From the NCBI RefSeq assembly GCF_024642105.1, contig NZ_JAHEBT010000054.1, positions 62,001-126,000 on the forward strand: DNA of 64,000 nucleotides, given 5' to 3'. This document shows positions 56,045 to 58,508 of the stretch, piece after piece (within the stretch, counting starts at the first letter, position 1; each line of letters opens with the position of its first letter). The DNA comes from Flavobacterium sp. GTDB lineage: Bacteria; Bacteroidota; Bacteroidia; Flavobacteriales; Flavobacteriaceae. Made by a program: the position numbers and the translations under genes. The notes under the pieces are model-generated. The model was not told the origin of the DNA. It searched no databases and worked only from the letters and a program-made list of their open reading frames with translations.

Positions 56045-56117
56045 GGTACCTTAGCTCAGATGGTAGAGCAATGGACTGAAAATCCATGTGTCCCTGGTTC
56101 GATCCCTGGAGGTACCA
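56045..56117 (+). tRNA. tRNA-Phe (anticodon GAA)
   Basis: GGTACCT...AGGTACC acceptor stem, ATGGA-CTGAAAA-TCCAT anticodon arm, TTCGATC T-loop; CCA not encoded. Confidence 0.95.
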
Positions 56118-56149
56118 CAAAACCCACTCAAACGAGTGGGTTTTTTGTT
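56118..56149 (+). terminator. Terminator after tRNA-Phe
   Basis: AAAACCCACTCaaacGAGTGGGTTTTTTG. Confidence 0.85.
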
Positions 56150-56177
56150 TTTATACCTTCATCTAAAATCTAGTTTC

Positions 56178-56313
56178 CTCCGCTAGCGCAAGCATCTTAA
56201 TCGTGCCATGAGCAACTTACATTATACTATCGTCCCTACGGGACTTGTCTCAGACATACAAGGCTTTTATTACCAAGATGCGACTCCTAACGGAGCCTGA
56301 TTCTATAAATAAA
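56178..56313 (+). repeat. Element A, copy 1
   Basis: ~115 bp core nearly identical to 57785-57920; AGCATCTT...AAGATGC outer IR, GTCCCTACGGGAC, CTCCtaacGGAG. Confidence 0.85.
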
Positions 56314-56315
56314 AC

Positions 56316-56370
56316 CCCGATAGCGCGGATTTGCACACGAACGAAGTGAACTGACGAAGTAATCCGTGCC
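56316..56370 (+). repeat. Element B (REP-like palindrome), copy 1
   Basis: CCCGATAGCGCGGATTTGCACACGAACGAAGTGAACTGACGAAGTAATCCGTGCC; identical 55 bp at 57719. Confidence 0.88.
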
Positions 56371-56443
56371 TACCAAAAACTAACATTAACTACAAACCTA
56401 AAAAGTTGTAGTTTTTTTATTAAATTTGATTTAAAGCTATTTT

Positions 56444-56998
56444 ATGTCTACAAAATACAAAGCTACCACTACCGATGAAGCTTATTTTATCACTATAACT
56501 ACTATAGGTTGGATAGATATTTTTACTCGATTAAATCAAAAGTATACTATAGTAAATGCATTGAATTATTGTCAGCAAAATAAAGGATTAGAAATTTATG
56601 CATATGTTTTGATGAGTAGTCATATTCACCTATTGTGTAAAGCCACTAATGGTTTTATACTATCCGATGTAATCAGAGATTTTAAAAAATTTACTTCAAA
56701 AAAAATTCTTGAAACTATAAAAGAAGAGCCAGAAAGTAGAAGAGAATGGATGTTAGATTACTTTCAAAAATCCTGTCAACATTTAAAAAGAGAGCAAAAT
56801 TATAAAGTGTGGCAAGATGGCTATCATGCGGAGCTAGTTGAAACTAATTGGTTCATCAAACAAAAAGTAAATTACATTCATACTAATCCTGTTAAAGACA
56901 AAATAGTCGCTTTACCTGAGGATTATTATTTTAGTTCTGCTAGAAATTATGCTGGCCTAGATAATGATTTAGAAATTATTATGTTAGATTTGTTTTGA
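56444..56998 (+). mobile_element. REP-associated tyrosine transposase (RAYT, Y1_Tnp family)
   Basis: 184 aa; MSSHIHLLCKA (HUH-type), VWQDGYHAELVETNWFIKQKVNYIHTNPVKDKIVALPEDYYFSSARNYAG (catalytic-Tyr region). Confidence 0.88.
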
Positions 56999-57004
56999 AA
57001 ATTA

Positions 57005-57289
57005 GTGTTGGCACGGATTGCAAATCCGCGCTATCGGGATTATGGAGGTGTGGATTACCAAATCCATAACGACAATGACCCAATATCTCCTTTTTATGAA
57101 TTAAAAGGAGCTGAATATATTTACAAAGGAAATAAATCATCTAAAATTGGAGCTCACGGTGGAACGGTTTCTAAAAAAGCTATTAACAACTTAAAAGCAG
57201 CTATTGAAGCTTTTGTAAACTCTTCTGATACAAAGAAAAAAGAAACCGAAGAAGGCACTATTTACTATAAAGATCCAGCAGAGCAATGA
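57005..57289 (+). pseudogene. ORF94: hypothetical; 5' end formed by element B, probably a truncated gene remnant
   Basis: MLARIANPRYRDYGG is the translation of inverted element B; the rest (VDYQIHNDNDPISPFYELKGAEYIYKG...) lacks an internal Met. Confidence 0.5.
57010..57038 (-). repeat. Element B copy 3, inverted and internally deleted (29 bp)
   Basis: GGCACGGATTGCAAATCCGCGCTATCGGG = reverse complement of the outer arms of B, central ~26 nt missing. Confidence 0.85.
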
Positions 57290-57639
57290 TACAATTTAAA
57301 AACATATTAAAAATAGTTGTTTATGCATCGATAAACATCTTACTCGGTTTTATTATATATTTTATCTCTTTAAGACCCTTAAGTCCAGGAGAAGAACAAT
57401 TGATAATAAATTTTAAAGACAAAACACTTTTAATATTTACTATAGAATGCTTTCTTTTTGTATTGTTAATTACATCTCTTTTTTCTGCCTTGTCATATTT
57501 AACATTTAGATTTTTTTATAAAGAAAGAAGCAGAAAAAGAAAATCATTTTTAACAATACTTATTATTTATTTTCTTTTCACTTGTTTATGTAGCATAGAA
57601 TATTTTAATTATATAAATCAATTGATTTATCATAGGTAA
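57286..57639 (+). CDS. Hypothetical membrane protein coupled to ORF94 (ATGA overlap)
   Basis: 117 aa, three hydrophobic segments. Confidence 0.55.
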   Translation: MIQFKNILKIVVYASINILLGFIIYFISLRPLSPGEEQLIINFKDKTLLIFTIECFLFVLLITSLFSALSYLTFRFFYKERSRKRKSFLTILIIYFLFTCLCSIEYFNYINQLIYHR

Positions 57640-57718
57640 TGTTTACTCTGTAAAAAACAAATTGGTTGTGTATCAAAATTAGTGATGGCTATAAATACAT
57701 AAGTTACTATATTGATAT

Positions 57719-57773
57719 CCCGATAGCGCGGATTTGCACACGAACGAAGTGAACTGACGAAGTAATCCGTGCC
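57719..57773 (+). repeat. Element B, copy 2
   Basis: 55/55 identical to 56316-56370. Confidence 0.9.
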
Positions 57774-57784
57774 TAACAAAAAGC

Positions 57785-57920
57785 CCCTGCTGGCGCGAGC
57801 ATCTTAATCGTGCCATGAGCAACTTACATTATACTATCGTCCCTACGGGACTTGTCTCAGCCATACAAGGCGTTTATTACCAAGATGCGACTCCTAACGG
57901 AGCCTGATTCTATAGATAAA
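57785..57920 (+). repeat. Element A, copy 2
   Basis: Near-identical to 56178-56313; follows B instead of preceding it. Confidence 0.87.
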
Positions 57921-58047
57921 TCACCCAAGCACCTACTCTTATCCATTTTTCATTTCAATAGATTTTACCATCAATCATTCATTCTTTTTTCAATAAAACT
58001 AAAGGGTTTGCATTATTTTTAAAATTTTATTGTCAATATCGAATTAC

Positions 58048-58088: not shown

Positions 58089-58508
58089 ATGGAAATTGTA
58101 TCCTGCCCAAAATGCCAAAATAATCACATCATCAAAAGCGGCATCATCAATAACAAACAAAGGTATTTATGTAAAAATTGCAAGTATTTTTTCACAGTAA
58201 ATAAAATAGGCAAAAAGATAGATGATTACTATGTTACCAAGGCATTACAACTCTACCTTGAAGGTTTAAGTTATCGCGAAATAGAGCGCATTATTGGGGT
58301 GTCGCATGTCACTATTAGCAACTGGGTAAAAAGCTTCAATGTAAAAAAACCTTCTCATACTGATTACCATCCTACTTACAAGATATTTAGTCATTTAGAA
58401 CTCGTAGAGTATTTAAAAAATAAAGAATTATTGTCTGGTGCAGGCATGATTATAACCGAACTTGGCGACAAATTTATGTTGATAAAATGGGAGCGCTTTA
58501 AAGATTAA
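58089..58508 (+). CDS. IS1-InsA-like zinc-ribbon + HTH protein, likely domesticated regulator
   Basis: MEIVSCPKCQNNHIIKSGIINNKQRYLCKNCKYFFTV; LYLEGLSYREIERIIGVSHVTISNWVK; no DDE domain follows; start preferred downstream of the -7 box. Confidence 0.75.
   Translation: MEIVSCPKCQNNHIIKSGIINNKQRYLCKNCKYFFTVNKIGKKIDDYYVTKALQLYLEGLSYREIERIIGVSHVTISNWVKSFNVKKPSHTDYHPTYKIFSHLELVEYLKNKELLSGAGMIITELGDKFMLIKWERFKD

Follow-up and report, generated by a model that had tools for sequence, protein, structure and literature searches.

The window, a stretch of 64,000 nucleotides from a Flavobacterium genome of 3.03 Mb in 58 contigs (C50:62001-126000), contains a RAYT gene surrounded by two kinds of repeat block, A and B. 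The RAYT, two B elements, an inverted B' and two A blocks lie where a sequence-only reading of the window had placed them, with A before B on the left and after it on the right (Table 1). The two B copies are identical over all 55 bp and the two A copies at 133 of 142 positions (94%). Both A and B are direct, not inverted, when the two sides of the RAYT are compared.

Table 1 Features of the RAYT locus, in window coordinates.
Feature	Position	Strand	Description
tRNA-Phe (gaa) followed by terminator hairpin	56045..56118	+	Conserved left boundary
A, left copy	56177-56318		Same orientation as right copy
A-left, left copy, GCTAGCGCAAGCATCTTAATCGTGCC	56182..56207	+	Degenerate copy; REP type of a third RAYT clade
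A-right, left copy	56226..56297	+	Two hairpins (GTCCCTACGGGAC, 56232-56244; CTCCTAACGGAG, 56284-56295) joined by TACC (at 56271); predicted solo end unit of subclass 1.2 TnpA
B, left copy	56316..56370	+	Predicted cognate REP of the window RAYT
T-tailed hairpin CTACAAACCTAAAAAGTTGTAGTTTTTTT	56390..56418	+	Between B and RAYT start
RAYT (TnpA-REP)	56444..56998	+	184 aa; HuH = SHIH, WQ, YIHTNP; subclass 2.6 / group 5-like
B'	57010..57038	-	29 nt; compact B hairpin, inverted, 12 nt past the RAYT stop codon
B, right copy	57719..57773	+	Same sequence as left copy (55/55)
A, right copy	57784-57925		Same orientation as left copy
A-left, right copy, GCTGGCGCGAGCATCTTAATCGTGCC	57789..57814	+	
A-right, right copy	57833..57904	+	Hairpins 57839-57851 and 57891-57902; TACC at 57878

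Several further features accompany these elements. A truncated-looking ORF of 94 aa (57005-57289) starts right at B' and is followed by a 117-aa membrane-type ORF that extends to 57639 and matches no family above its cut-off; the ORFs of this interval have the look of a gene remnant, with the break at B'. To the right of the second A block, a 139-aa protein (58089-58508) with a zinc ribbon and an HTH resembles the N-terminus of IS1-type transposases, with a score below the IS1 cut-off, and is possibly a domesticated or truncated IS protein. T-tailed hairpins like CTACAAACCTAAAAAGTTGTAGTTTTTTT precede 18 of 27 RAYT orthologues as compared with 28 of 101 distant windows, an enrichment that is modest in DNA that is AT-rich.

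The assignment of the transposase gene as a Y1-type RAYT was borne out by profile searches. Its product scored 103.9 bits against NF047646 (REP-associated tyrosine transposase; cut-off 80) and 37.5 against the Pfam family Y1_Tnp (PF01797; cut-off 23). It has the Y1_Tnp fold with HuH and a single Tyr, and the gene is flanked by a hairpin repeat family that is dispersed in the genome. A PDB sequence search with the protein returned no match. Close orthologues, as a rule at least 68% identical, are present in 63 of 300 same-genus genomes. The protein resembles subclass 2.6 (Corneloup 2018), which is RAYT group 5 (Bertels 2017), a Bacteroidetes group with "atypical" REPs. The two have in common the Bacteroidota host, the length (184 aa against a median of 179 aa), the WQ and YIHxNP motifs, and non-GTAG hairpins that flank the gene and have further copies elsewhere in the genome. 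Set against the subclass definition (NH[LIV]H, WQ, YIH[QN]NP, about 179 aa, Bacteroidetes), WQ, length and taxon fit, whereas SHIH and YIHTNP of the window protein deviate. The orthologues mostly carry YIHNNP (22 of 27), yet they have SHIH or SHLH, so the HuH motif of the window RAYT and its orthologues is mostly SH[IL]H instead of NH[LIV]H. REPs of the subclass lack a GT[AG]G foot, as do the B hairpins with their GATA, GATC or GTTA feet; the loop-insert variant of B in the window sets it apart from the subclass. The RAYT/B pair is probably a further member of this known type. The REP sequence GATAGCGCGGATTTGCAATCCGTGCC had no match in the literature searched, and among the papers listed for the hairpin sequence strings none was relevant.

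B consists of a CCCGATA foot and a 9-bp stem, GCGCGGATT/AATCCGTGC, with a G-T wobble and a 26-nt insert in the loop. B' had been described as a shortened inverted B; its position and inversion were correct, but since B equals the compact B' hairpin plus 26 nt in the loop, B' counts as the standard form and B as a variant of it. The remaining B copies examined in the genome have the compact form, and the long-loop form, with compensatory changes in the stem, was also found in another species (L072). The insert in L072 is of the same type as that in the window, and in L071 the B hairpin carries a different loop or stem insert, TCCCGAAGTTTCGGGA; these inserts suggest nested insertion of palindromes into REP loops. 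A motif, CTAGCCCCGATAG, in other repeats (L004, L006, L010 and L023) has the foot CCCGATAG in common with B and may represent another REP family or a shared target or foot.

The distribution and conservation of B point to it as the REP of the window RAYT. Its 5' arm has three exact matches in the window, where 0.10 are expected at up to three mismatches. Across the genome it has 10 copies at up to one mismatch and 18 at up to three, against 0 and 3 for the reversed pattern, a control that stayed near zero throughout; B is not a single-locus sequence. Among 27 intact orthologues in other same-genus genomes, B lies upstream on the plus strand in 23, downstream on the minus strand in 22 and at both ends in 20, compared with 5 of 101 distant windows. 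The REP/RAYT organisation proposed earlier is upheld by this flanking of orthologues together with the dispersal of B in the genome. In 36 distinct hairpins found near orthologues, 98.1% of stem cells were paired and 20 double changes were counted versus 4.3 in shuffles, and pairing fell to 25-58% when the partner strand was slid, as is characteristic of a conserved hairpin with compensatory changes. Genomes with the RAYT contain 4.17 B cores on average and those without it 1.28 (p=5.6e-10, uncorrected for genome size and relatedness). At least one B copy was also found in 115 of 237 RAYT-less genomes, so some of the B copies are relics, are shared with a second RAYT or match by chance.

Block A had been regarded as a second element paired with B. 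It is instead a composite of two unrelated REP-type blocks, A-left and A-right, which have other cognate transposases, and it is not the partner of B. A-left takes the form of a GCTAGCGCGAGC-GTCTC-GCTCGTGCC hairpin and was found in 132 of 300 genomes, with 10 matches in the genome of the window and none for the control. In relatives (L333, L344, L358, L367 and L368) inverted pairs of A-left bracket the genes of a third RAYT clade, about 43% identical to the window RAYT, which marks A-left as the REP of that clade. No RAYT of this clade was found in the genome of the window, in which the family search gave only four Y1 genes. Because A-left has its outer stem and 3' tail in common with B, the resident RAYT may recognise A-left as well. 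Ownership of A-left by the GGTGCTCG-type RAYT (clade Y) was considered and rejected: the clade Y hairpin differs, and A-left flanks a clade of its own.

A tree built from 81 RAYTs served to examine the correspondence between RAYT clade and REP family. The four REP types (B; A-left; GGTGCTCG..CGAGTACC; and GCGCAAAGTC..GACTTTGCGC) fall on four RAYT clades with 4 label changes, which is the minimum, compared with a mean of 38.5 after shuffling. As near-copies inflate such clustering, the weight rests on the support for the four clades, which is 97-100%. Several of the GCGCAAAGTC-type labels were set with the aid of the protein motif YIHLNP because the strict hairpin pattern missed these loci, the flanks of which show the same hairpin type. 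RAYT clade and REP family thus match one-to-one, four of each.

Other Y1 genes and REP combinations were noted in the genome of the window. About 50 bp or less beyond the B copy at C13:94577 (L034) lies a GCACAAAGTCTCCTGACTTTGAG hairpin, of the REP type that goes with still another RAYT clade, so mosaics of REP families exist elsewhere in the genome too. A Y1 gene at C52:550310 (L048, 1327-1896, minus strand) with NHFH and YVHLNP is similar to subclass 2.1, which has been published as REP-less, and is framed by CCTGCAAGGTTTTGAAAACCTTGTAGG palindromes with several copies nearby. A Y1-like gene at C51:14355 (L046, 1375-1962, minus strand) with NHFH and YIHNNP has GCTTCCAGCCTT..AAAGGCTGGAAGC palindromes on both sides; a similar palindrome lies near an A-like copy at C18 (L004).

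A-right led to a different transposase class. In this unit two palindromes enclose a spacer followed by a TACC motif, and the same layout is found on both sides of another Y1 gene in the genome of the window (C12:35044-35502). The product of this gene has 153 aa, with DHLH, WQ and YIQNQEKRH. It fits TnpA-Y1 subclass 1.2 (DH[IV]H, WQ, Y---Q--HH, about 148 aa, Bacteroidetes/Cyanobacteria; Corneloup 2018) in its motifs, its Bacteroidota host and its low copy number; DHLH and RH are each one residue off, and the alignment consensus fits. A-right is best read as a stand-alone end unit that belongs to a subclass 1.2 TnpA. The letters CGTC open A-right ahead of a palindrome, and the unit is dispersed, as are the CGTC REPs, which have an unpaired CGTC tag, a stem starting with A-T pairs and a CCA tail (Di Nocera 2013, PMC3733652). 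That identity was ruled out: GTC is paired with GAC within the stem of GTCCCTACGGGAC, the stem differs in that its first pairs are not A-T, and a transposase goes with A-right, whereas none was reported for the CGTC REPs (PMC3733652).

Subclass 1.2 TnpA is listed as having no REP (Corneloup 2018, PMC6006769), whereas here palindromes flank most of the members examined. In almost every locus viewed within the genus, palindromes of the A-right kind occur at one end or at both. Counted strictly, as perfect stems of 5 or more lying no farther than 130 bp away, they were present upstream of 89% and downstream of 75% of TnpA1.2 loci in the genus as compared with 12% of distant windows. For 21 loci outside the genus the figures were 81%, 81% and 17%, and for 78 named TnpA1.2 loci palindromes were found upstream of 66 and downstream of 48, against 8.8% of distant windows. 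In the TACC-anchored stem, the inner four positions were fully paired at 55.6% of sites versus 23.6% when 3' parts were dealt from other sites, and more than 10 different arm pairs were seen. Covarying double palindromes therefore flank subclass 1.2 TnpA genes across Bacteroidota. The absence of an associated REP, given as a feature of the subclass, does not hold here; it is a published negative, and membership does not rest on it. TnpA1.2 copies per genome are few, mostly 1-4, and palindromes of the A-right type are also dispersed without a TnpA gene. A MAG labelled Candidatus Nitrotoga (L226) carries a typical Bacteroidota TnpA1.2 gene, on a contig that is probably mis-binned.

The INDEPENDENCE test compared RAYT and TnpA1.2 with B and A-right over the same 300 genomes, uncorrected for genome size and relatedness. 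RAYT is associated with B (OR 5.1, p=2e-7) and not with A-right (OR 1.2, p=0.59). For the close subgroup of TnpA1.2 the association is with A-right (OR 48, p=1e-24), and B shows none (OR 0.96, p=1); the two enzymes themselves are unassociated (OR 0.87). Genome size and relatedness would act on the off-diagonal cells as well, and the flatness of those cells (OR about 1) is the only internal control for them. These are two systems, each bound to its own repeat, RAYT to B and TnpA1.2 to A-right. F. gillisiae, F. omnivorum, F. paronense and F. frigoris are species in which the two are present together. The expectation that repeat copy number would track the RAYT hence proved right for B and wrong for A-right; independence of RAYT presence, which the sequence-only reading had named as grounds for its refutation, was found for A and not for B. 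The pairing of A and B at this locus is incidental.

The swapped block order, once thought to be a feature of the system, has a simpler background. At C52:52594 and C52:54296, A-left again comes after B, across a linker that starts CTAACAAA and is still recognisable as similar, and in one relative (L079) B and A-left form a tandem with a period of about 298 bp. As the combination recurs at two other sites, the swapped order needs no special mechanism: on the right (B-A) the order is that of two blocks repeatedly found side by side, and on the left (A-B) it reflects either the opposite phase of such an array or a duplication on the spot. Long-loop copies of B that are identical at the two ends speak for a recent duplication; the A/B blocks may also have arisen by independent insertion. 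Among 24 relatives examined at coaX, 23 have coaX and tRNA-Phe followed by DNA that lacks the A/B/RAYT arrangement in the part viewed, and in the remaining one (L311) coaX has no tRNA-Phe next to it. The interval is therefore variable and the block a later arrival; with the closest relative only about 74% identical at coaX, no exact empty site can be read.

We consider it highly probable that the locus is the REPtron of a subclass 2.6-like RAYT, bracketed by its own inverted REP and lying among repeats of two independent Y1 systems. B upstream and B' downstream would face outwards with their GATAG feet. By analogy with the TnpA-REP enzymes of E. coli and Stenotrophomonas, from which recognition of single-stranded hairpins, cleavage by the HuH tyrosine and gene-independent dispersal of REPs are taken (PMC8266576), the RAYT may bind B as a single-stranded hairpin, for instance on the lagging-strand template, cut beside the foot via its HuH/tyrosine site and then join the ends. 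B hairpins would thereby be copied or moved while the RAYT gene itself stays put. Each half of A would have been brought in by an enzyme of its own, that of A-right being encoded at C12:35044-35502 and that of A-left not found in the genome, and the A-B and B-A blocks would be REP clusters, locally duplicated or parts of a cut-up tandem array in different phase to the left and right of the gene. The GTAG REPs, REPINs and BIMEs of Enterobacteria and Pseudomonas are similar to B in the short imperfect hairpin with an unpaired 5' foot, the REPtron layout and the mosaics of several REP types. They differ in the foot, GTAG as opposed to (CCC)GATA, and in abundance: GTAG REPs reach hundreds of copies per genome, and B about 10.

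A two-part system in which the window RAYT moves A and B jointly, with block swapping as part of the mechanism, is very unlikely. A does adjoin B on both sides of the RAYT in nearly identical copies, but A-right and B are each indifferent to the other's enzyme, A-left and A-right flank other transposases, and orthologous RAYT loci are flanked by B and not by A. Moreover, the full A has only one other copy in the genome, at C18:90476 (68% identical), with no B in the part examined. It is also improbable, if slightly less so, that the 1.74-kb A-B-RAYT-B'-...-B-A stretch is one composite mobile element inserted downstream of tRNA-Phe. The relatives with coaX and tRNA-Phe but without A, B and RAYT behind them would suit such an insertion. 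Against it, A and B are direct between the two sides, a genome search with the 203 bp of A-B turned up no further copy of the entire arrangement, the stretch contains the truncated-looking ORF, and the interval is variable in all relatives, including the closest.

We give as little credence as to the two-part system to the hairpins being mere transcription terminators or RNA structures beside genes, for which their position and the T-tailed hairpins near the RAYT would speak. REP identity tracks the transposase clade and not the neighbouring gene, feet and orientation are conserved outside the stem, and no T run follows B; an Rfam search of the locus gave the tRNA as its only convincing match and no family matching A or B. 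A more serious alternative, though still an unlikely one, concerns A-right: subclass 1.2 TnpA could be an ordinary IS200-type IS with the palindromes as its ends and A-right a PATE/MITE-like derivative instead of a REP. A PDB sequence search with TnpA1.2 indeed returned the TnpA of IS608 and ISDra2, and IS200 elements too have hairpins at both gene ends. This reading sits poorly with the low copy number and the gene-free palindromes noted above, and with the published 1.7 copies per genome, mean identity of 36% and unaccepted IS status (Corneloup 2018, PMC6006769). Instead, subclass 1.2 TnpA is probably a further REP-handling enzyme, with two palindromes per gene end that are joined by GGTA/TACC and covary freely, and with a unit that is dispersed without the gene.

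The path from A-right to a TnpA class thought to be REP-less is the less expected result and the part worth following. If true, a transposase class described as lacking REPs would gain them across the whole phylum. Flavobacterium bears on how REPs are made and on the ownership of repeats by enzymes. This one genus has no fewer than four RAYT clades, each paired with a REP, together with a double-hairpin TnpA class, and so offers a natural specificity matrix for in vitro cleavage, in which block swapping is replaced by testable block ownership.
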